In this document: one piece after another, positions 3,134 to 18,122 of the stretch
Layout: the number at the start of each line of letters is the position of its first letter
Position numbering within the stretch: the first letter of the stretch is position 1
Virus record (IMG/VR): IMGVR_UViG_3300028388_002249
Location: 1-21,322 of that record
Source of the DNA: a virus
DNA: 21,322 nt
Strand: one strand, 5' to 3'
Notes under the pieces: generated by a model
The model's input: only the letters and a program-made list of their open reading frames with translations
Told to the model about the DNA's origin: nothing
The model's database searches: none
Program-made: the position numbers and the translations under genes

Positions 3134-4143
3134 TGTGACCCCAGCAGGTATTCATAGCCGGCTCGAGCTCTTGCTGCTGCGACCTTGATCTCTTCGTCTG
3201 TCAGTTTCAGCTGCCTCTGCAACAGCTTGTCCCTGCGCTCCTCCTCGGCGGTGATCTGCTCTTTGATGCCAAGCTTGTCGAACTTGGATATGTTCTCATC
3301 TCCAAGTAGGTCAAAGAGCCCCTGCAGCGTGTCGCCGGTGTTGACGAAGCTGGCGCTCACAGCCTCAAAAGCGGACTCTATACGCCGTGCGTCCCCTTCG
3401 ATCTGAGCCACCATGATCTGGGACTGCGCCTCAATGGCCGCCAGCTTTTCATCGAGCGAGAGCTTCTTGGTCTCGTCCTCGATGCCCTTGACTGACTTGC
3501 CGAGCTCGTCGCCCTTGCCGGCCGCTTCGCCCGCTGCATCCGCCGCCTCGTAGAGCGTCTCCTTGTACGGCACCAGGGTGCCGACGCCCTCCTCTGCTGC
3601 ATCCGCCGCCTCGTAGAGCGTCTCCTTGTACGGCACCAGGGTGCCGACGCCCTCCTCTGCTGCGTCAGCAACCTCCCACAAGCCGGTGCTGAAGTTGTAG
3701 AAGCGCTCGCGGCCATCGTCTGCAGTACCGGCAATGTCCGCCATTGCCTCGTCGGCCTCGCGGATCTGACGCGCAGTGGCCTCAGCAGACGGCCCCGTGG
3801 TCTCGGTCAGCTCCCTGCCAAGCCCCTCAAGCTCATCATTTAGGCCGGTAACATCAGCCGCCCAATCAGCAAGCCGTTCGCTAAGCGATGTGCCGGTGGC
3901 GGCCTCGGTCGCCTTATTTGCCAGCGTGCCAAGCGCAACGCCGGCGGCTCCTGCGGCCCCGACAAGCCCCGCCTTGCCCAACAGCGCCAGCAGCCCGGTG
4001 GAGCCGGAGAGCGCAGTAGCCGCCCTGCCGAACGAGCCCGCAAGGCCTGCGCCCTGGGACAGGCCGATGATGGCGATCAGGGACTCGATCGACGGCAGCA
4101 GGCCTGCCACGGCACCGCTGACCAGGTTAGCCTGTGTCGCCAT
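3130..4143 (-). CDS. Tape measure protein, C-terminal part (second frame)
   Basis: The frame is open upstream to 4278, but an ATG at 4143 (MATQANLVSGAVAG) gives a 337-residue product that overlaps the upstream tape-measure frame by 17 bp. The N-terminal half is Gly/Ala-rich and hydrophobic (about residues 5-80), as in tape measure membrane-insertion regions. The rest is highly charged and helical, ending EEERRDKLLQRQLKLTDEEI. It contains an exact tandem duplication of a 21-residue unit (EEGVGTLVPYKETLYE and flanks). The frame is +1 relative to the upstream tape measure: it may be the 3' part of one gene broken by an indel or deletion, or a separately translated gene. It is followed with a 4-bp overlap by a tail-tip gene, so it sits where a tape measure should end. 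Confidence 0.7.
   Translation of the reverse strand: MATQANLVSGAVAGLLPSIESLIAIIGLSQGAGLAGSFGRAATALSGSTGLLALLGKAGLVGAAGAAGVALGTLANKATEAATGTSLSERLADWAADVTGLNDELEGLGRELTETTGPSAEATARQIREADEAMADIAGTADDGRERFYNFSTGLWEVADAAEEGVGTLVPYKETLYEAADAAEEGVGTLVPYKETLYEAADAAGEAAGKGDELGKSVKGIEDETKKLSLDEKLAAIEAQSQIMVAQIEGDARRIESAFEAVSASFVNTGDTLQGLFDLLGDENISKFDKLGIKEQITAEEERRDKLLQRQLKLTDEEIKVAAARARAGYEYLLGSQ
3533..3663 (-). repeat. Exact 63-bp tandem duplication inside the tape measure
   Basis: Two identical 63-bp copies lie at 3533-3595 and 3596-3658, followed by 5 further matching bases. The period is 21 codons, so the reading frame is kept. Each copy encodes a unit containing EEGVGTLVPYKETLYE. The copies show no differences, which suggests recent duplication. 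Confidence 0.95.
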
Positions 4144-5428
4144 GCCGCGCGCGCAGTCCCTCGACAAACCCGGACATGTCGGCCTGATCAAGCGCTGCCG
4201 GCAGGTTTTCGGCGACCGAGGAGAGAACGTCCTCCAGCAGCCCCATCTGCTCCTCGACGAACTCGACCACGCCCGCAAGCTGGCCCTCGTCCACCGAGTT
4301 GCTGATGCCGAGGAAGATATTGCGGATGGCGTCTGCGATGCCGCCGGCCTCGTCCAGCAGTGGGTCGCCGAAGGTGATCAGGATGTCCTTGAAGGCGTTT
4401 TCGATGCGCTGGGACATCTTCTCCAGGTCATCCACCATCTTCCCGTAGGCTTCAGACGTCACGCCGGCCTTTTTTCCCATCTCCTCAATGTTGCCGGCAA
4501 AGGAATCTGCCGCACTACCGGTGAGCGGGAATACGGCGCGCAGCGCCTCAACCGAGCCGAACAGCTTGCCCATCTGCTCTTCGTTGCCGCCGGTGGCGCG
4601 GGCAACATTCTGTAGGACGCCATCAAGGTCCTTGGCCTTGACTGCCTGCGCGTTGAACTCGATGCCGAGCTCTGCGGCGAGCTTTGATGCCTCTGCGGTC
4701 GGCTTGATCAGCGCGGCCATCGCGGCATTGATCTGCGTGATCGCCTGCGATGTCGGCGTGCCGACCGACGTCAGCGATGCGATGGCGGAGAGGACTGTCT
4801 CGAACGGTACCTTGAGCGTCGCGGCGGTACCGGTGACCTGCGACAGCCCGTTGGCCAGCTCCGGCAGCGTGGTCTGGCCGTTTTTCACGGTCAGGAACAG
4901 CGCATCAGAGAAGCGGCCGGCCTCCTCCATACCCAGGCCATAGGCGTTAAGCGAGGACACCAGCACGCGCAGCGTATCGTTCAGATCCGCCTTGCCAGCA
5001 ACAGACAGCTGCTCAGCAATCGATACCGCCTCAATCGCATCCTTGTAGTCCACACCCGCTGAAATCGCGTTGTAGACCGCGGTGGTGACCTGCTCGAGCG
5101 GCGCCGTGCTATTGGCTGCGTAGTCCTGCAGCGCATCCCTGAACCCGCCGAGATTCTCGATGGGCTCATTGATCAGCGTGGCGATCTCGCGGAATGCGCC
5201 GTCGAAGTCGCCCGCAATCTTGATGGCAAACGCAGTGGCAGCAGCGCCGGCGGTGAGCAGCCCGGCCTCCAGCTTGATCGCATTCGTCGTGAAATCAGCA
5301 ATGGGCTGCGTGGCGCCCTGGATGTTGCCGGCGAGATTGCTGGTGCCGCCGATGACAGACTGAACAGCAGCGCCGGTGTTATCCACGGCGTTGAAGATCA
5401 GATCGATGGTGCGTTGCGCGTCAGCCAT
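4127..5428 (-). CDS. Tail tape measure protein, TP901 family, N-terminal part
   Basis: A 433-residue protein. Residues about 75-330 read as the TP901 tape-measure core: FREIATLINEPIENLGGF, then APLEQVTTAVYNAISAGVD, LNAYGLGMEEAGRFSDALF, LPELANGLSQVTGTAATL and NIEEMGKKAGVTSEAYGKM. Tape measures set tail length and help pass DNA through the host envelope. The frame stops at 4127 with an odd tail (RARHGDTG), while similar low-complexity coding continues in the +1 frame from 4143. The two frames together would give about 765 residues, a normal tape-measure size; 433 alone is short. The start ATG overlaps the stop of the frameshifted chaperone extension by 8 bp. Family assignment is firm; whether the gene is intact is not. 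Confidence 0.85.
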   Translation of the reverse strand: MADAQRTIDLIFNAVDNTGAAVQSVIGGTSNLAGNIQGATQPIADFTTNAIKLEAGLLTAGAAATAFAIKIAGDFDGAFREIATLINEPIENLGGFRDALQDYAANSTAPLEQVTTAVYNAISAGVDYKDAIEAVSIAEQLSVAGKADLNDTLRVLVSSLNAYGLGMEEAGRFSDALFLTVKNGQTTLPELANGLSQVTGTAATLKVPFETVLSAIASLTSVGTPTSQAITQINAAMAALIKPTAEASKLAAELGIEFNAQAVKAKDLDGVLQNVARATGGNEEQMGKLFGSVEALRAVFPLTGSAADSFAGNIEEMGKKAGVTSEAYGKMVDDLEKMSQRIENAFKDILITFGDPLLDEAGGIADAIRNIFLGISNSVDEGQLAGVVEFVEEQMGLLEDVLSSVAENLPAALDQADMSGFVEGLRARHGDTG

Positions 5429-8805: not shown

Positions 8806-10785
8806 TTATGCGCCGGCGTTGGTGACAGCGCCGCGGTAATCGATGGCACCGACACCGAAGTCGAGCCGCACTTTGTACTGCGCCCCGTCCACGTCGAAGC
8901 CGTCCTGGATCTCGAGATAGGGCGACTGGTTGCCGTCCAGGAACGCCACCTCGATGACGGGCGCCTCGGACGGATCCGCAAACGTGTAGAACCGGGTGCC
9001 GGACAGGCGCGGAGTGTCCACGATGTCGCGGAACAGCCCGCGGACCATGTTCGGGCGCTGCAGCTTGCCGGAGGTGTCAGGGTCGTACTCTGCGGCGTTG
9101 ATCACGCGCGCAGTGCCACCAAGACCCATGGGCACCAGAAGGACAGCCGGGCGCAGATCGAGGTAGTCATTGCCGCCGACATCCATCTGGCTGGCCAGCT
9201 TGACGCGCGCGTCCTCAATGCTGACAACTGCCAGCGCACCAGCAGAGCCGATGTTGCCGTGGTCAGCGTGGAACAGCGTCTTGCTGTCGCCCATCACCGG
9301 GCCTAGACCTGCGTTCTCGGCCAGCAGCGCGTATACCGCCGCCTCCACCGTGCGGGCCGCAGAGCGCCCCAGCATATTGGACAGGCCGAGGAAGGCGCTC
9401 AGGTCATCGTTGATGATCGCCTGGCGGGACAGGTTGATGATGTTGCCCACCGTCTTGGCGGAAATGCTGGCCTTCTCACCATCAGGGATGGTCTTGTTCG
9501 TGAACTCACCCAGCTCGCTGACGGTGTCCAGGTTGCCCAGGCTGCCAACGCGGTACCGGTTGTGAGCACGGAAGTCGCTTACGCTTCCTGTTGCGCAAAA
9601 TCGGCTCCAGGTGAGCGCAGCCGCGCCGTAGGATGCCTGCAGCGTCTTGTACATCGCCTCTTCGAGCAGCACCGGGAAGTCGGAGGTGCTCTGCGTGAAG
9701 GCGGCGCCGACGATCTTCAGCTGATCCATTCCGCGGGTGGATACGCCAGATGCCTCAACGCACTCGCGCGCAATGTCAAGCAGGCGATAACCGCGGTAAG
9801 GGTTGCCGTTGTCTGCCTTGACGCCCGCAACACCAGCACGCGCTAGCACTGCGTTCACTGCATCTGCGCGGCGCTCCTCGCGCTCGTTGAAGCGGGTCAC
9901 CACGTGACCCTGAATGGGCTCGGCGCCCTCTGCGAGCTTGGCGAGGATGCGCTCACCAGCAACGGCCGCGGTCACATGGTCATCATCCATGCACTGCGCC
10001 TTGAGCTCTGCCATGCCATCTCGCTCGGCGAAGGGCTCAAACTTTGCGGCCACCGCCTGGCGGCGCTCACGCTCTTCCTTCAAGGCCTGCGCCTTGATGG
10101 CCTCGAGATCGACGGCATCCGCCGCCGGCTTGTTGTCGGTAGGCATATTACCCTCCTGGTGTGTCGCGGCAGCCGCCGCACGAAATCGCGTATACCGCGA
10201 CAGATCAAAAACCTTGTGGATGTGCGCGGCCACAGGCAGCGCAGCCGTGACGGCATCGATAAGACCGGCGCTGGCCGCCTCATCTGCCGAGAAGTAGTGG
10301 TCCTCGCCATCGGTAAGCAAGCCGAGGATGTAGTCAGCGTCAACGTCAGTGCGCGCTGCGTAGGCGTTCGCCATCGCGCCCGCATATTTGTCGAGCACGT
10401 CGGCGTAATCGCGCATGCTCGTGCTGTTGCCGATAGACACGCCCCACGGCGCATGAATCATCAACAGCGCGTTCTCGGCCATCTGGACAGTGTCGCCGGC
10501 CATGGCGATCAGGCTGGCGATGGAGGCAGCGATGCCGTCAATCTCGACGTGTACTGCAGCAGGGTGCCGGCGAAGCGCGTTGTAGATGGCTAGCCCGTCG
10601 GTGACGCTGCCGCCATACGAGTTGACGCGGACGGTCAGGGTGTCAGCATCAAGCGCAGCCAGATCGCGCACAAACTCGCGAGCGGAGACGGTTTCATCGT
10701 CCCAGCCCTCGCCGATATCGCCGTAGATGAAGATCTCAGCCGCGCGAGGCGCTGCAGATGCCTTGATGGTAAATGGAGAGGTCAT
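8806..10785 (-). CDS. ClpP-like prohead protease fused to major capsid protein (Mu gpT-like)
   Basis: A 659-residue single frame. Residues about 15-200 form a ClpP-type serine protease: NSYGGSVTDGLAIYNAL, the nucleophile motif GIAAS (Ser88), MIHAPWG with His111, and EDHYFSADEAASAGLID carrying the likely acidic residue. Residues about 214-305 are charged and helical (EAIKAQALKEERERRQAV), as in scaffold or delta domains. Residues about 310-659 resemble the Mu gpT-type major head subunit: TSDFPVLLEEAMYKTLQ, LSRQAIINDDLSAFL, TLFHADHGNIG, ARVINAAEYDP. The protease would cut the scaffold during prohead maturation. A consensus Shine-Dalgarno and ATG occur in frame at codon 214, so a separate capsid product of 446 residues is likely. 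The gene start has GGGAGA nearby and a dyad element 45 bp upstream. Confidence 0.88.
   Translation of the reverse strand: MTSPFTIKASAAPRAAEIFIYGDIGEGWDDETVSAREFVRDLAALDADTLTVRVNSYGGSVTDGLAIYNALRRHPAAVHVEIDGIAASIASLIAMAGDTVQMAENALLMIHAPWGVSIGNSTSMRDYADVLDKYAGAMANAYAARTDVDADYILGLLTDGEDHYFSADEAASAGLIDAVTAALPVAAHIHKVFDLSRYTRFRAAAAATHQEGNMPTDNKPAADAVDLEAIKAQALKEERERRQAVAAKFEPFAERDGMAELKAQCMDDDHVTAAVAGERILAKLAEGAEPIQGHVVTRFNEREERRADAVNAVLARAGVAGVKADNGNPYRGYRLLDIARECVEASGVSTRGMDQLKIVGAAFTQSTSDFPVLLEEAMYKTLQASYGAAALTWSRFCATGSVSDFRAHNRYRVGSLGNLDTVSELGEFTNKTIPDGEKASISAKTVGNIINLSRQAIINDDLSAFLGLSNMLGRSAARTVEAAVYALLAENAGLGPVMGDSKTLFHADHGNIGSAGALAVVSIEDARVKLASQMDVGGNDYLDLRPAVLLVPMGLGGTARVINAAEYDPDTSGKLQRPNMVRGLFRDIVDTPRLSGTRFYTFADPSEAPVIEVAFLDGNQSPYLEIQDGFDVDGAQYKVRLDFGVGAIDYRGAVTNAGA
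10146..10157 (-). promoter_or_regulatory. Internal ribosome binding site and start for the capsid part
   Basis: On the minus strand AGGAGG at 10157-10152 is followed by a 5-base spacer and an in-frame ATG at 10146-10144 (product begins MPTDNKPAADAVD). It sits exactly between the protease domain and the charged scaffold-like segment. This is a better ribosome binding site than that of most genes in the window. It would yield a 446-residue scaffold-plus-capsid protein from inside the fusion gene. Confidence 0.75.
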
Positions 10786-10829
10786 GCCGGTCTCCCGATC
10801 AGGTTACCGGCAGTTTTCTACCCTACGGG

Positions 10830-10854
10830 TGAAATTGTTATCCCTTGGATTTCA
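10830..10854 (-). promoter_or_regulatory. Dyad element, copy 1 (upstream of protease-capsid operon)
   Basis: On the minus strand this reads TGAAATCCA, then AGGGA, then TAACAATTTCA. The outer arms TGAAAT and ATTTCA are inverted repeats separated by 13 bases. It shares 22 of 25 bases with the element at 18382-18406. It lies in the only 81-bp gap between the chitin-binding-like gene and the capsid gene, 45 bp above the capsid start. An operator for a dimeric regulator or a promoter element is inferred. Confidence 0.7.
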
Positions 10855-10866
10855 GTATTGCGAGCG

Positions 10867-11859
10867 TCACTCCACCAACTGCCAGCCTGCGGGATAACCC
10901 GTGGGCGACCACGAATTGTTGTCGATGACAGACTCATAAACTGAGCCATTGAAGGTTACTCGATCGCCCGTGTTGTATATGTCGTGCGAGCCTGTGGGCT
11001 GCACCCACTCATCAGGCCGCTGCCCGTGGCCATGGCCACCAGAGCCAACGCGCAATGGTGTGAACAGGCTGGCAGCAGTAGCTGGTGTCCAGTCTGCTTG
11101 GCTGGTGTGGGCCTGCAGTACCCGATAAGGCACGTCACCCACGCGTACTATGTCGCCTATGGCATACGCCTGATTGACTGCCCATTCGTCGTACAGGTAG
11201 GCCAGCGCGGCCTTGTCCTCGTCGGGTAGCGCGTCAATCTTTGCTGCGATCTGCTCACGCAAGACCAGCGTGGAAGCGATCGCTTCCGCTTGCGGGCCTT
11301 TGATCTTTGCCTGGTAAGCGCCCTTCTCGGCATCGGTCAGGGCGACGATCTGCCAGTCGTATGTGCGTGTTCGGCTTCCAGCATCGAAAAGATCACCGCG
11401 CAGCTTGATAGCGCCGGCATCCATAAGCTGCGCTACGCCAGCAACGCGCTGCGCATACGCCGCCCTTGCCTCTGGCTCCATCTGCACGCCATTGAGCTGC
11501 TCGTGGGATGTGCGCACAGACAGTGCAATCGCAAACTCGCACAGGCGCATCACGTCGCTCAGCAGATCGTGCACATCGCCTACATCCAGCTCGATGCGTT
11601 TGCGCACCACATCCTTTGCGATGCGAACCGGGCGGGTCATCTTGAGCGCCTCAAATAGCGCAGGTGTCATCTCTGCCTCTTGCCACGCAATCTCCGCCGG
11701 CTGCTCCGGTAGTGTTACGTCAGCTGGCACAGAGACGTAGCGCCAGCCATCGATCTCGCCGAGCTCGATGGCCTGCGGCTCATCGGAATCTGCGTTCACA
11801 AACCGCAGCGTGTACCCGTTAGGACCAGGGACTGTGTGTGTCTGATAGCGGTAGATCAT
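10867..11859 (-). CDS. Tail fiber-associated protein with two C-terminal chitin-binding-like modules
   Basis: A 330-residue protein. Residues 1-90 look like a fiber-accessory or attachment domain (MIYRYQTHTVPGPNGYTLRF, then ELGEIDGWRYVSVPADV). The middle is helical. The C-terminus carries two modules of the CBM5/12 (ChiC-like) type: NQAYAIGDIVRVGDVPYRVL with HTSQADWTP, and DIYNTGDRVTFNGSVYES with NSWSPTGYPAGWQL. Such modules bind polysaccharides. A Gly-His stretch (GSGGHGHGQ) separates them. The start has GAGGAG six bases upstream. It is encoded next to the large fiber, on the other side of the HNH gene, and may assist fiber assembly or supply extra glycan binding; the exact role is inferred. 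Confidence 0.65.
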   Translation of the reverse strand: MIYRYQTHTVPGPNGYTLRFVNADSDEPQAIELGEIDGWRYVSVPADVTLPEQPAEIAWQEAEMTPALFEALKMTRPVRIAKDVVRKRIELDVGDVHDLLSDVMRLCEFAIALSVRTSHEQLNGVQMEPEARAAYAQRVAGVAQLMDAGAIKLRGDLFDAGSRTRTYDWQIVALTDAEKGAYQAKIKGPQAEAIASTLVLREQIAAKIDALPDEDKAALAYLYDEWAVNQAYAIGDIVRVGDVPYRVLQAHTSQADWTPATAASLFTPLRVGSGGHGHGQRPDEWVQPTGSHDIYNTGDRVTFNGSVYESVIDNNSWSPTGYPAGWQLVE

Positions 11860-11886
11860 CGCGTGCTCCTCGCCTTAGCATAGTTG

Positions 11887-11895
11887 TGGTATGAT
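11887..11895 (+). promoter_or_regulatory. Possible extended -10 promoter for the HNH gene
   Basis: TGGTATGAT fits an extended -10 (TG-N-TATGAT), 33 bases before the HNH start. No convincing -35 box lies at the right distance. The 68-bp gap between two divergent genes is the only place where a promoter for this lone plus-strand gene can lie. Confidence 0.35.
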
Positions 11896-11927
11896 GGTGC
11901 GGAATCCATAGTTAACAGGTTGCCGCC

Positions 11928-12572
11928 ATGCCACGAGGAAAGGACGTAACCGGGCAAAAGTCCAACCGGCTTCTTGCTATTCGGCGAGTAGGCACAAACC
12001 ACAGAGGCCAAGCCATCTGGCTCTACGATTGCGATTGCGGCAAACAAATCACCACCGTCCAATCTGAAGTTACGCGAGGCAGAACACGGTCCTGCGGCTG
12101 TCTCGGCTTGGAGCAAAGGCGAAGAGCTGCAAAGAGCCGACAGCACGAATACAGCCGCGCAAACTGGACGCGCGAGCGCAGAACCTGGGAAGGTATGATC
12201 GGCAGGTGCACCAATCCAAATTACCCGGGATATGAGCGCTATGGCGCGAGAGGCATTCGCGTCTGCGAGCGATGGATGAAATCCTTCAAAAGTTTTGCGG
12301 TTGACATGGGCAGACGGCCCGAAGGGTGCACTCTCGACAGGATCGACAACAGCGGCGACTACACCCCCGAAAACTGCCGATGGGCAACCACCAGCGAGCA
12401 GAACAACAATACCCGCGTCAACCGCCACGCCACCATCGATGGTCGCACACAGACCGTCCAGCAGTGGTGCCACGAGCTCGGCGTAGATAGCGCACTGGTC
12501 TACAACCGCCTGCATCGCGGCTGGAGCGAAGCGGACGCCATTCTGACTCCTAACCTCAGACATAGCGCTTAA
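11928..12572 (+). CDS. HNH homing-type endonuclease
   Basis: A 214-residue protein and the only plus-strand gene in the window. The N-terminus has paired cysteines (C35-x-C37 and C56-x-C58 in WLYDCDCGK and SCGCL) that could bind zinc. Residues about 85-163 hold the phage HNH pattern: WEGMIGRCTNPNYPGYERYG, RGIRVCERW, LDRIDNSGDYTPENCRWAT and SEQNNNTR. Residues about 170-205 (QQWCHELGVDSALVYNRLHRGWS) look like a helix-turn-helix for DNA binding. Such free-standing genes spread between phages by cutting alleles that lack them. Its TAA overlaps the stop of the convergent fiber gene by 4 bp (TTAA). Orientation and position mark it as a mobile insertion between two receptor-module genes. Family is clear; target is unknown. 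Confidence 0.88.
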   Translation: MPRGKDVTGQKSNRLLAIRRVGTNHRGQAIWLYDCDCGKQITTVQSEVTRGRTRSCGCLGLEQRRRAAKSRQHEYSRANWTRERRTWEGMIGRCTNPNYPGYERYGARGIRVCERWMKSFKSFAVDMGRRPEGCTLDRIDNSGDYTPENCRWATTSEQNNNTRVNRHATIDGRTQTVQQWCHELGVDSALVYNRLHRGWSEADAILTPNLRHSA

Positions 12573-14407
12573 CTGCTCGGGGCGGGACGGGCAGCGCGCC
12601 ACCCGTAGATCGTGCTGCCAATCGACCGGCTGCTGCGCCAATGCCGGTAGAACACGCCGGCGCTGACGCTAAAGCTCCAGTGGCCGGCACAGGGCACGAA
12701 GAGGTTCGCGCGGTTGTACTGATAGCAATAGTCCTGGCCGAACAGGCTGGTGCCGCTTGCCGACATCGCGTCCGTGTCTTGCTGTATGCCGCACGCTGTC
12801 CGCAGCCAGCCAGCGCCGCTCGTCGCCTCGTCAAACACCTGGTTCGTCCCATTGCCGAAGTACACTGCGCCGGTGGCGCTACCCCATGGCAGCAGCCCGG
12901 TCTGCAGGTCGTACAGTGTCGCCAGGTGCGCTGCGTTACCCCACGCATCATTCGTCGAATTCCAGCCGGCCTTCAGGTCAGCTGCCGCAACAGACTCCTT
13001 GAGCGCGTACACATCACCGCTGGCCACCTGTGCCGTATCGGTCGCACTGGATCCGGGCGATGTGATACCCAGTGCCACCTGGAACATCGAGCCATTCACG
13101 TCGGCGATACCGCAGCTCTGCCCATTGTGCGTAGTCTTAGCAAATGGCGAGCCGCTGCCGGTCTGCGGTTTGTTCGCATTGCCAGAGTCGCCCGCGGTGG
13201 CGAATGTCACGCCAGAGTCATCGACGTCCGACAGCGCATTGTTGTTGCAGCCCTTCGGGTAGTTGGTCGTGCCGGCGGCGTCATACCATGCACAGTGCGT
13301 AGAGCTGCTGGATGCCTGCGCGTGCGCCAAGCTGAGCAGCGCCACCGCGGACACTTGGAACACTGTGTGGCAGTGGAACCCGGCGCCACGGGCTCGACTC
13401 AGCATCACGGCGTCTGCGAGGATGCCCGTGCACGTGCCGTCCGGCGTGACCATGCCATTGCTGTTCGTGTAGTTGGCGTCGGTTGTGAGCGATATGGGCA
13501 CCCCGTTTTTGACCGACTTGCAGGATGTGCTGCCATCCTTGCTCGCCAGATACTTGTCGTAGAAAAATCCGTCCAGCACCTGCCCGCCGTCGATGAATGC
13601 GCGATGCATCGCGTAGCCTGCAGCATTCGCGGCGGCCTCGTCGGCGTAGGTGTCTATGCCCTTCACATCGATGCTGTTGGCGCCGTAGTCACCATAGGTC
13701 GGATTGCTCGCATGGCCGATGCGGTAATAAAACCGCGGCACGAAGCACATGATGCTGCCGTCCGTGTACTGATAGTTGCCGTAGTTGTCTGATGCAGGGT
13801 CCGTGGTGCCCGTCATTTCAGAGAACCCGGACGGCAGGTTGGTAGCCACGCCCACACCGAAGCCCTGGGTGCCAGGCGCGCCGATCAGTCCACCGAATGT
13901 CGCCGCAGTGGCGAATGACGAGGCGGCGGACCACTCAGACGACCCATTGTTGGTGCCGTTGTGGCGCACGCGGACGTAATAGGTCTGGGACGTGGACAGG
14001 CCGGACACATCCCAGCTGGTCAGGTTTGATGTGTCTGCTGTGGACTGTGAGACGATGGACGTAAAGCCGGCATCGGTGGCGAGCTGCCAGTCGCTGGATG
14101 CGTGCGTATCCGACAGGCCTGACCAGCCGAATGCGCTGCTGGTGATCGTCACACTGCCCATCTGGTCGACCGCGCCATTGGATGGCGATGTGATGCTGGG
14201 TGTATCTACGCCCAGCGCCACAGTAGATGCGCTCACCTCGGCCCAAGCGCCGGCGCCAAGCGATGCACCCACATGCCGCGCCCTGAACGTGTAAGCAGTG
14301 CCCGGCGTGATCTCGCCGGCAGTAATCGATAGCAAATTGACTGTGTCGCCCAGACTCTGCCAGACGACAGACGCGCCATCGAGGATCTGCCAGGTCGACG
14401 TATATGT
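12569..14407 (-). CDS. Tail fiber, C-terminal part: Fn3-like repeats and C-type-lectin/FGE-like variable domain
   Basis: This frame has a usable start at 14335 (a TTG codon), but coherent protein sequence extends back to about 14407 ([16 protein letters not shown]), so it is the continuation of the upstream fiber frame. It holds one truncated and one full Fn3-like repeat ([11 protein letters not shown], then [19 protein letters not shown]). A domain seen in many phage tail proteins follows: [55 protein letters not shown] and [20 protein letters not shown], resembling the formylglycine-generating-enzyme/C-type-lectin fold. The last 31 codons before the end show the pattern of a retroelement-diversified region. 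Joined with the upstream frame the fiber would be about 1010 residues. Receptor binding is the likely role. Confidence 0.8.
12590..12682 (-). other. Candidate DGR variable region at fiber C-terminus
   Basis: These 31 codons run from [11 protein letters not shown] to GWRAA. Fixed positions (W, AGVF, R, W, R-S, G, T, GWRAA) mostly use codons without adenine as a target. The intervening positions S, F, S, S, Y, H, R, S, S, I, S, I and Y are all NNC or NNT codons. They are what AAC/AAT template codons give after adenine-specific mutagenesis. No template repeat or reverse transcriptase is in the window, so the call is inference. Confidence 0.5.
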
Positions 14408-15602
14408 CAGCAGTGGTGAACGCCACAGGCGCAGACTCGGCAGACCACCCGAGGATCGCGCCTTTGTGCTGCACGGTCACGCTGTAGAGGGTGTCGCCAC
14501 TTAGCGTGGGCGGGACGTAGGACACCAGGCCCGACACCTCGCCACTGTCGTGCACGATGGAGCCGCCAGAACTGACCCGCCAGCGGGAGGCCTCGTGTGT
14601 ATCTGCAACGCCGACCGCCTCAAACGCCGAGGACTCGATGACCGGAGACCACGCTATACCTGTGGCGCCGTCAATAGGCGCTGTGATGCTGGGTGTAAGC
14701 ACCCCCGCAGGCAGCACGTCCACGACAAAATCTGCCTGCACGCCGTCTGCGGTCACTGATAGCGTGATCTCGCCGGACGTGGCGGGCGCCGTGAGCGTGA
14801 GCGTGTCGCCCGCCAGGCTGACAGTGCCGCTGCTGACCTGCACTAGATAGGACGAAAATGCGTTGTAGTTTGTGATCAAGTACTCGCCGACCTGACTGGC
14901 GTAGATCTCTGTGCTGCCAGATAGCGTCACTGCGGATCCGCCGCCAGATGCTGGGTCGATCCACTGCGTATCAAAGTCGGTACCGCTTGCCTTTGCGAGC
15001 ACCTGCCCGGTGGTACCGCCGATCGGCACACCCTCGCCTGCCGGACCCTGCGGGCCTGTCGCACCGGTCTCGCCCTGAGGGCCTGTCGCACCGGCCGGCC
15101 CGACCTCACCTTGCGGACCCGCTGGCCCCTGCGGGCCATCGATGCTGCCCACCAGAGACCACGCGCCAGCCGCTTTCGCGAAAACGTCACCGCTGGTGGT
15201 GTTGAGGTAGTAATCACCATCAGCGCCAGTTGCTGGCGCCGGGTCCGTCGTGCCGTCGTGCCATGTGGTACCCGGGTCGCCCTTAGGACCGGCGGGGCCA
15301 GCATCACCTTGTGGGCCAGCAGGCCCGGCGGGCCCAGCAGGACCGGTATCACCGGCAGGCCCAGCAGCACCAGTGTCGCCTTGCGGGCCGGCAGGGCCTG
15401 TAGCGCCAACAGGACCGTCTGGACCAGCAGGCCCCCGCATGCCGCCATAGCTGAGCGCAGCCCACGCGGTCGTGCCATCGCCCACCTTGAACTGGTCTGT
15501 GTCGAGCTCAAGCCCGATCTCGCCCTCGGCAAGCGTGGGATTTGCCGATGTCCAGTTTGCCGCTGTATCCCTGCGCAGCTGGATTCGGGTGAATGTGCTC
15601 AA
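13935..15602 (-). CDS. Tail fiber, N-terminal part: Mtd-like N-terminus, collagen repeats, Fn3-like domain
   Basis: The first 50 residues ([41 protein letters not shown]) match the N-terminal domain of the major tropism determinant (Mtd) of Bordetella phage BPP-1, a virion-anchoring beta domain. Two collagen-like Gly-x-y tracts follow (about residues 55-110 and 153-190) flanking a [19 protein letters not shown] module. An Ig-like and an Fn3-like repeat come next ([12 protein letters not shown], then [10 protein letters not shown] and [13 protein letters not shown]). After about residue 398 (VAFTTAD) the frame loses sense and ends at 13935, while the +1 frame continues the Fn3-like pattern. 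The start overlaps the upstream collagen-like gene by 4 bp. The fiber is encoded between portal and capsid genes, away from the tail cluster. Confidence 0.82.
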
Positions 15603-16123
15603 GCGCCACCTCCAGTGATTGTGTGGTCCTGCAAGTCAGATGTCGTGCCGCCGTCAACCGCGCTGGCCTGCACCGCACCGGCAGGGCCGCCATCCATGAT
15701 GGCCGGTGGAGACCAGGTACCGCCGATGACCTCGCGCAGCATGGCAATGCTGACCCGGTAAGCGGCTCCCTCGCGCTCGAGGACCAGCGTGTCGGTCTCG
15801 GCGATGTCCAGCAGCAGCGGCAGGCTTGAGACGTCGAATGATGAGGCGGAGCCGCTGCCGCCGCCGCCACCACCTTTCTGACCTCGCGCGCCTTTCGGCC
15901 CCCGCAGATCGACCAGCTCACCCCAGCCGCCGTCCGGCTTCTCGAAGCGCAGCTTAGTCCCTTGCCACTCATGGTCGGGCGGATCGCCCTTGGGCCCCGG
16001 CGGGCCCCGGTCACCCTTCGCCTCGGCGGTCAGCCTGTCGCGCTCAGCCTCGGCGCGCAGGCGCATAGACTCTTCTGCTGCGCGCCTAGCGCGGACGCGG
16101 GCCAGTACGTCAACTGAACTCAT
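15599..16123 (-). CDS. Short collagen-like structural protein
   Basis: Starting at the ATG at 16123 ([14 protein letters not shown]) gives 174 residues; an upstream start at 16144 is possible but overlaps the portal more. Residues 5-40 are a basic, helical stem ([20 protein letters not shown]). Two short Gly-x-y tracts follow ([12 protein letters not shown] and [16 protein letters not shown]), then an acidic domain ([33 protein letters not shown]) and a small C-terminal domain. The gene is squeezed between portal (14-bp overlap) and fiber (4-bp overlap). It may be a fiber anchor, a head fiber or a capsid-surface protein; the collagen-like and helical parts favour a trimeric fibrous protein. 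Confidence 0.7.
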
Positions 16124-18122
16124 TGCGCAGCTGCTCCAGCGCAAGCTCTTCGGCCGTGCGCGATGCCCTGGCAGCCGCCAGCCTCTCCGCCTCGATCGCC
16201 GCTTGCGCCTCTCGCGCCTCAGCCTGCGCTGACAGCAGTGCCGCGTGCGCTTCCTGATTCCGGCGCTCTGCAGCCTTCATCGATTCTCGGGCAGACTTCG
16301 CTTGATCTTCGATCGACTTCGCCTTGGCCTCTGCTTCTGCTTTGATCGCCTGCAGTCGGGCTTCTCGCTCTTCCAGGTCAGCGATCTGCCGGGCCTCTTT
16401 CTCTTCGGCGGCGATCCGGGTGCGCTCGGATTCGCGGGCCGCCTGCGCGTCCTGATGCTCCTTCTGCGACAGCGTGAAATCTGTGTCGGCCTCCGCCTTC
16501 CGCGCCTCCGCCTCCGCCAGGAGTGAGCGCGACAGGTGCTCGGACTCTCGCGCCTTCTCGGCGCCTTCCGTCGCCTTCAGCCTGCCGGCATCAGCTGAAG
16601 CCGTCATATCCAGTCGCGACTGCTCCGCCTCCATGACCTCCATGTCGTGAGGGCCTGGACCAGCATTGGAGTCAAAAGTAATGCCGCGCTCGGCGACATC
16701 CTCTCGCCACTGGTGGATCTGCTCGAGCACGTCTGCCGGATTCTGACCGCGGCGCCTGATCACCTCCTGCTCGCTCGCAAAGCCTGCGCGTACCAGCTTG
16801 AGCCACGCCCCCGCCTCTTTTGCGGGGTCGATCCACGGCATCTGCTGCCCGATGAAGCTGGCATCATCTGCCGAACCGCCGCGCAGATCAGCGGGCCGCG
16901 GCACGGCGCCAGAAAGGTCGGCCGCAATGACGAACGCCTCCCAAACAGGGCGGATGATGTTTCCTACGAACTCGTCTGTGAGTGCCGCATAGTGCGTCCA
17001 CTGCTCGCCCATCTCCTGCCGCTGTGCCGAGTAGGTGCCGCTATAGTCTTTGGAGAGAGATGAGTAGCTGGCGCCAATGCCCGCCGCAAACGCTTTCAGC
17101 TGACCCTGTCGGAACGTGACCAGGTTAGGGTTAGGCCTCTTGCTGTCGATCAGGCCAATCTCCTCGCCCACCTCTAGCGTGTCTATGATCACGCCGGGCT
17201 CCAGGCCGATCTCGCGCGGTAGTGGGTTGCCAGACTCATCCCTTGCCAGCCTGTCAGGATCGATGCCGTCCGGAGAGTGGCGCTTCACGTAAGCAGTAAG
17301 CATGGCCGCAATCTTGGCCGCAACGCGCTCGCTCTCCTCGTAGTCTTTGATGTCCTCGAGGCGCGTGATCACCGATGCAAACTCGGACACGCCGCGCAGC
17401 TGCCCGATGCGGTCCGTGCTGGCGATGTGGAGGATGCGGTCAGCCGGCACGCGCTTGAGCTCAGCCGTGAGTGCCGACGTCAGCACGTTGTCACTGGGAT
17501 GGTGCTTGTGCAGCCAGTAGGCCCTCGGCGCACCCCAGGCATTGGTCTCGATGCCCTGGCGAATCCCTCGACCGGTATCGTTGAGGTAATACGGCACCAT
17601 GTCAGGCTCGAATAGCTCGAGTGATAGTGGCACGCGGGTACCGTGCTGCAGCAGCGGTATCGGCCCTTGCAGCAGCTGCGCGAAGGCCTCGCCGTCTCGT
17701 ATCCATGTGCGCGCCAGCAGCCGCTGCACGCGAGCCCAGTGGTATTGCTGCGTGACCTCCGGGTGGCGCATCCAGTCACGCCATGCCTCACGCAGCAATG
17801 CCGCGTACTCCTCGTGGATGGACCCGTCCGGGCGCCTCGGCTGCGGCTCAATGCCGACACCAGTCGGCCCCACGATGTTGTCAGTGATAGTCCGCAGCGC
17901 GCCGCGGGTGATGTCGTGATTCTGCGCCAGGTGGCGCACCTGGTTGCGGACCGCAACAGCACCCTGCTGTGTCTGCAGGTTTGGGCCAGCCGCGGCAGTC
18001 CGGAACTTGCGCAGCCGTCCAGGCTTTGCCGCCTCATAGTATGCAAGGGCGCGGCGGGCGCGCTGCCTGCGCAGAGCCGCCTCCGGGCTGAATACGCCGA
18101 TCAGCGCATCGATGGCGCTCAT
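16110..18122 (-). CDS. Portal protein, lambda family, with long coiled-coil C-terminus
   Basis: A 670-residue protein. Residues 1-480 fit lambda-type portals: RQRARRALAYYEAAKPGRLRK, NHDITRGALRTITDNIVGPTG, WARVQRLLARTWIRDGEAF, LFEPDMVPYYL, RILHIASTDRIGQLRGVSEF and SYSSLSKDYSGTYSAQRQEM. The portal forms the dodecameric ring for DNA entry at one capsid vertex. Lambda gpB has 533 residues. Here residues about 505-670 are an added Ala/Glu/Arg-rich segment (SERTRIAAEEKEARQIADLE, AEAEAKAKSIEDQAKSARES) predicted by eye to be a long coiled coil. The start overlaps the gpW stop by 4 bp (ATGA). The collagen-like gene starts inside its last codons. Confidence 0.9.
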   Translation of the reverse strand: MSAIDALIGVFSPEAALRRQRARRALAYYEAAKPGRLRKFRTAAAGPNLQTQQGAVAVRNQVRHLAQNHDITRGALRTITDNIVGPTGVGIEPQPRRPDGSIHEEYAALLREAWRDWMRHPEVTQQYHWARVQRLLARTWIRDGEAFAQLLQGPIPLLQHGTRVPLSLELFEPDMVPYYLNDTGRGIRQGIETNAWGAPRAYWLHKHHPSDNVLTSALTAELKRVPADRILHIASTDRIGQLRGVSEFASVITRLEDIKDYEESERVAAKIAAMLTAYVKRHSPDGIDPDRLARDESGNPLPREIGLEPGVIIDTLEVGEEIGLIDSKRPNPNLVTFRQGQLKAFAAGIGASYSSLSKDYSGTYSAQRQEMGEQWTHYAALTDEFVGNIIRPVWEAFVIAADLSGAVPRPADLRGGSADDASFIGQQMPWIDPAKEAGAWLKLVRAGFASEQEVIRRRGQNPADVLEQIHQWREDVAERGITFDSNAGPGPHDMEVMEAEQSRLDMTASADAGRLKATEGAEKARESEHLSRSLLAEAEARKAEADTDFTLSQKEHQDAQAARESERTRIAAEEKEARQIADLEEREARLQAIKAEAEAKAKSIEDQAKSARESMKAAERRNQEAHAALLSAQAEAREAQAAIEAERLAAARASRTAEELALEQLRNEFS

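Follow-up and report, generated by a model that had tools for sequence, protein, structure and literature searches.

A phage fibre tip that probably was a DGR target, with an HNH endonuclease gene in the place of the avd-TR-RT cassette

The fibre tip encoded by the window, i.e. the whole record IMGVR_UViG_3300028388_002249, a 21,322-bp linear fragment of a phage genome, is probably a former DGR target, which was frozen after an HNH gene, belonging to a clade that occurs at DGR loci, replaced avd, the template repeat (TR) and the reverse transcriptase (RT) gene. In the window the minus-strand genes run in the order TerS-like, TerL, portal (16110-18122, upstream of the fibre module), collagen-like protein and fibre, followed by the plus-strand HNH gene, a CBM5/12 protein and a ClpP-capsid fusion. 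Named phages, searched by DNA and by protein, gave distant relatives only (best 34%). The comparisons below are with related fibre loci, each designated by an L number.

The core of the variable region (VR) is formed by 31 codons on the minus strand (12682-12590), delimited by their codon pattern and by alignment with the VR/TR pairs of relatives. The alternation of fixed residues with NNY codons in this segment, noticed in the original prediction, was seen again and is beyond chance: 11 codons are AAC or AAT in at least six of eight relatives' TRs, and at all of these (11/11) the window has NNY and at none Asn (p about 0.003, given a fibre NNY background of 0.587), with the majority residue kept at 15/20 of the remaining VR codons. 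Compared with the TR of L006, mismatches lie at 16/28 adenines versus 16/72 other sites (p 0.001), and the adenine enrichment holds over eight TRs (p 0.0005-0.016). The variable-region footprint in the window is thus confirmed, and it lies, as in DGRs, in a C-type-lectin target protein. The 16 non-adenine mismatches with the L006 TR also reveal that the window's VR is far from every TR found; the comparison points to former diversification, the date of which such distant TRs do not fix.

A search with the lectin gave 80 viral and 10 genomic relatives, with the tip relatives being about 65% identical. When these were searched for near-repeats differing at adenines, the same segment proved in most of them to be the VR of a standard DGR, in which it is followed by avd, a TR 540-670 bp downstream and an RT gene; the ORF between VR and TR encodes Avd (bAvd/NF033474), and an RVT_1 match is present in 63 of the first 90 records. 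In these relatives VR/TR mismatches are almost exclusively at TR adenines, with a mean share of 0.54 of the TR adenines changed and 0.37 other mismatches per 100 bp over 91 VR/TR pairs. Of the 117 distinct loci for which 1.2 kb or more of downstream sequence is available, 85 have a TR close downstream; the window segment is therefore homologous to DGR VRs, which contradicts the suggestion that the pattern is a relic in a related non-DGR lectin. The one close relative in which a DGR occupies the corresponding site is L055, a 4.5-kb contig in which a portal gene 59% identical to that of the window is followed by a VR fibre, a TR and an RT gene.

The tip (12569-13900, minus strand) is predicted to be a C-type-lectin (FGE-like) receptor-binding domain with the fold of DGR variable proteins, on the basis of structure prediction and profile comparison. 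The AlphaFold2 model, built from 54 sequences (pLDDT 93.3, pTM 0.94), replaced a poor earlier model from 12 sequences (pLDDT 54). Its best PDB match is the Thermus aquaticus protein TaqVP (5vf4; E 1.1e-15, Z 30.8, 301 residues aligned at 20% identity), which is also matched by the tip profile (E 4e-6); the second structural match is Mtd (Z 12.7). The C-type-lectin/FGE-like fold anticipated for the C terminus is thus borne out by the predicted structure. Binding of the Mtd lectin tip to its host receptor is established, and the modelled tip of the window would likewise be expected to bind a host receptor. TaqVP is itself a DGR variable protein with an FGE-like lectin fold, but the window's domain is a phage fibre tip on a collagen/Ig-like stalk, in a record with no DGR.

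At its other end the fibre begins, as originally proposed, with an Mtd-like N-terminal domain (PF18454, E 1.9e-15, 57.0 bits versus a cut-off of 26.3), followed by collagen repeats (PF01391, E 7e-13). Such a head is weak evidence for a DGR because the closest DGR relatives have N termini other than Mtd-like. The fibre is not, however, the one gene (12569-15602) that had been described, but occupies two minus-strand frames: the first ORF (13935-15602), coding from 15602 to about 14400, includes the Mtd_N anchor, the collagen repeats and the first Ig-like domain, and the second (12569-14335, its frame being open from 14476) includes Ig-like domains and the lectin tip. Comparison with the fibres of L001-L008 and L081 locates the frame change in the stalk at 14385-14425, where about 45 residues are absent, which in the relatives make up the first half of an Ig-like domain. 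Programmed frameshifting was considered and rejected; a lesion or an error is likelier because no slippery heptamer was seen and half a domain is gone. The assembled sequence does not join anchor and lectin tip in one polypeptide.

The DGR machinery itself is absent from the record. An adenine-asymmetric search of both strands of the 21.3 kb found no TR, i.e. no near-copy of the VR, with the best other match covering 64/90 positions, and neither an RVT_1 match nor, by tblastn, an RT-like stretch was found in the same 21.3 kb; on both counts the original prediction was right. Searching the 21.3-kb record by tblastn with two Avds also gave no match, and it is on tblastn that the Avd negative is based, since the Pfam profile search for Avd had no control that gave a signal. 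In the nine DGR relatives closest to the window, and in most TR-bearing loci, the VR is succeeded by the IMH and a GC-rich hairpin with a GRNA loop, which is required for homing in BPP-1 (PMC3240598); no such hairpin stands after the VR in the window, L063 or L257. The GC-rich tract noted after the VR in the original prediction is not the usual post-VR hairpin.

What lies next to the VR is an HNH endonuclease gene (11928-12572, plus strand), convergent with the fibre, which the original prediction overlooked. The fibre and HNH stop codons overlap by 3 bp. Membership of the HNH family, with an intact motif, is evident from phrog_374 (E 6e-64), phrog_3377 and the alignment, and the product is a putative DNA-cutting endonuclease of the selfish type. 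On the far side of the HNH gene, with 68 bp between the two starts, lies a tail-fibre-accessory-like gene with two CBM5/12 modules (10867-11859, minus strand; PF02839), syntenic with, and 52-60% identical to, genes of L001-L008 and L081. The HNH gene occupies the avd-TR-RT slot, because the homologue of this tail gene comes after the RT gene in these DGR relatives and after the HNH gene in the window.

The same layout is present at L063, L257, L328, L337 and L133, and in all six, the window included, the starts of the HNH and tail genes are 50-68 bp apart. The border on the fibre side is more varied, coinciding with the stop codon of the fibre in four cases (window, L063, L257 and L337) and lying 187 bp past it inside a truncated avd in L133, and 423 bp past it behind a whole avd in L328. 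No RVT_1 match was found in the records of L257, L328, L337, L133 or L063. One clade (support 99/89) unites the HNHs of the window, L063, L257, L328 and L337; the L133 HNH may be its sister, and in a profile-based HNH scan the four best non-self loci were L063, L257, L328 and L337. Among the 117 distinct loci an HNH gene lies in the slot at 0/85 TR-bearing versus 5/32 TR-less loci (p 0.001), an association that is overstated because L133 and L328 were discovered via HNH searches, with fibre-based discovery alone yielding L063 and L257. The clade pattern of the slot HNHs is independent of this count. In 369 genomes of one class the HNH clade had matches in 3 genomes, none of them at a DGR locus.

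The replacement can be followed most closely in pairs of related loci, one of which has the cassette and the other not. Up to the end of the VR, L257 shares 87-88% identity with the DGR phages L252 and L250, and from the tail gene onwards 83% with L252; the stretch enclosed by these flanks is 1.69 kb of avd-TR-RT in L252 but 0.69 kb with the HNH gene in L257. The L257 VR differs from the L250 TR at 16/28 adenines and at 0/87 other sites, which shows it to be the work of that DGR, with hardly a change afterwards. In the case of L063 and L076 the flanks are 84% and then 90% identical, the VR has 16 adenine and 2 other differences from the TR, and L063 has kept the last 26 RT codons, where the RT gene overlapped the next gene. 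Further comparisons gave 16 adenine and 1 other difference for the L133 VR and the L052 TR, and 15 adenine and 8 other differences for the L328 VR and the L054 TR. The L257 and L063 pairs show a replacement of the cassette by the HNH gene. The portal relatives give no such before/after pair for the window itself, because most pass from portal directly to capsid and, where there is a gap between the two, no TR/VR pair was found in the interval. The fibre module of the window thus stands between portal and capsid genes (8806-18122) at a position where most portal relatives have nothing, the portal being directly followed by the ClpP-capsid fusion.

The favoured course of events, which corresponds to the 'DGR lost' option among the readings first offered, with the slot now filled by the HNH gene and the VR-side target hairpin gone, would be as follows. 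In an ancestor Avd, RT and TR, located in the interval that separates the fibre gene from the tail gene beyond it, would have rewritten the binding residues of the lectin; an HNH gene of the clade found at DGR loci would then have replaced avd-TR-RT and, in the window, also the VR-side hairpin, with loss of the cassette freezing the tip in its last state. The HNH gene presumably arrived by homing: the enzyme would cut the DNA of relatives that carry a DGR, and repair templated by the HNH allele would copy the HNH gene in and the cassette out, leaving a new genome without the site. Free-standing homing endonucleases of T-even phages convert a rival allele around their own cut site in this manner (PMC2988022). 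Deletion first and HNH insertion later would leave the same picture as homing. We tentatively suggest, as a possibility that at present is somewhat less probable than not, that the HNH lineage is specialised on phage DGR loci, with a target in avd-TR-RT, such that homing deletes the diversifier, makes the resulting genome immune because the site is gone, and fixes the receptor-binding tip in its current state. If so, this lineage would be a selfish element that turns off targeted hypermutation.

The most serious alternative, doubtful but by no means negligible, is that cassette loss and HNH insertion were unrelated, i.e. that an ordinary deletion was followed by a passing HNH gene settling in the space ahead of the tail gene. 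The 27 TR-less loci without an HNH gene are consistent with this, as is the finding that deletion alone is common in this fibre family, with clean deletions and scars in L032, L038, L039 and L255, and free-standing HNHs are frequent in phages (1136 records). It does not readily accommodate the slot HNHs being one clade across unrelated phages at a constant distance from the tail gene, nor the restart of flanking homology exactly at the gene borders in L257 and L063; a deletion-only intermediate was not found. Since the record is a fragment (21,322 bp, linear) and the footprint is clear, a DGR that is active but remote, with TR and RT in the rest of the phage genome or in the host rewriting the VR at a distance, stays in play, but we consider it unlikely. 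In every TR-bearing relative the TR is in cis and close downstream, the target hairpin is absent from the window, and no RVT_1 match was found in 13 records that share the portal/capsid backbone, several of which reach 30-50 kb or more.

Two other readings carry very little weight. That the HNH stretch was misjoined to the fibre in assembly, hiding an intact cassette, is highly improbable; the contig does have two frame breaks (near 14400 and 4150), but the same junction architecture recurs in L063, L257 and L337, which are from independent samples. Least probable of all, to a degree that is close to dismissal, is that the tip is a plain lectin with no history of DGR targeting, its NNY pattern having arisen by coincidence or codon bias. 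C-ending codons are indeed frequent in the fibre (249/554), but direct homology places the VRs of DGR phages at the same position, the mismatches are adenine-enriched and the predicted fold is that of a DGR variable protein.

The favoured reading, i.e. replacement of the cassette by the HNH gene, combines elements of known kinds, since VRs of DGRs, the loss of DGRs and homing endonucleases have all been described already. In the open-access literature we found no report of an HNH clade in DGR slots, although such coverage is no proof of novelty. The window shares with the DGR of Bordetella phage BPP-1 (Mtd) an Mtd_N-type head, a C-type-lectin tip, a VR at the extreme C terminus of the fibre and, in the window's relatives, the cassette downstream; it differs in that its record has an HNH gene instead of TR, Avd, RT and hairpin and in that its lectin is nearer to TaqVP than to Mtd. 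The seg/mob endonucleases of T-even phages, known for intronless homing and marker exclusion (PMC2988022), are likewise encoded by stand-alone genes between structural genes and in principle replace a rival allele by co-conversion; by contrast, the window HNH is of the phrog_374 type, the replaced allele would be a retroelement cassette, and homing is here only presumed. The HNH protein gp210 of phage PhiPA3 (PMC11620839) is directed against a co-infecting phage, but is intron-encoded and has a target other than a DGR.

Because DGRs are usually catalogued by their RT, DGR targets that lack the cassette are overlooked. Comparison of close pairs, one member with the cassette and the other without, reveals how a hypermutation system disappears; the VR serves as a dated record of its last activity (16 adenine changes and no others), and a mobile endonuclease clade is implicated as one of the agents of DGR loss. 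Whether selection maintains DGRs against such displacement thereby becomes a testable question.

Outside of the fibre, the tape-measure gene of the window changes frame at 4130-4160, at a CGCGCGCG run/GC repeat near 4150 (ORFs 5428-4127 and 4278-3130); this break and that near 14400 may be real lesions or errors. Elsewhere among the related loci, L038 (1495-1998) has avd fused to the 3' part of the RT gene, a scar of TR-RT deletion for which the DGR-bearing L028 provides the intact form, and L289 (6300-6677) has an RT remnant of about 125 codons, with a stop, directly after the VR fibre. L255 (6303-6707) encodes an Avd 98.5% identical to that of L252, with no TR or RT found, i.e. a fresh loss. 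The fibre locus L081, from the cultivated strain Ectothiorhodospira mobilis DSM 237, is a complete prophage fibre cassette with its DGR, the tip of which is 64% identical to that of the window. L082 (Zhongshania marina) and L012 have a VR-like fibre end with neither TR nor hairpin, the RVT_1 matches in the genome being four identical 401-residue ORFs, none of which is inside the fibre locus; Z. marina thus offers a cultivated host in which to study a frozen target.
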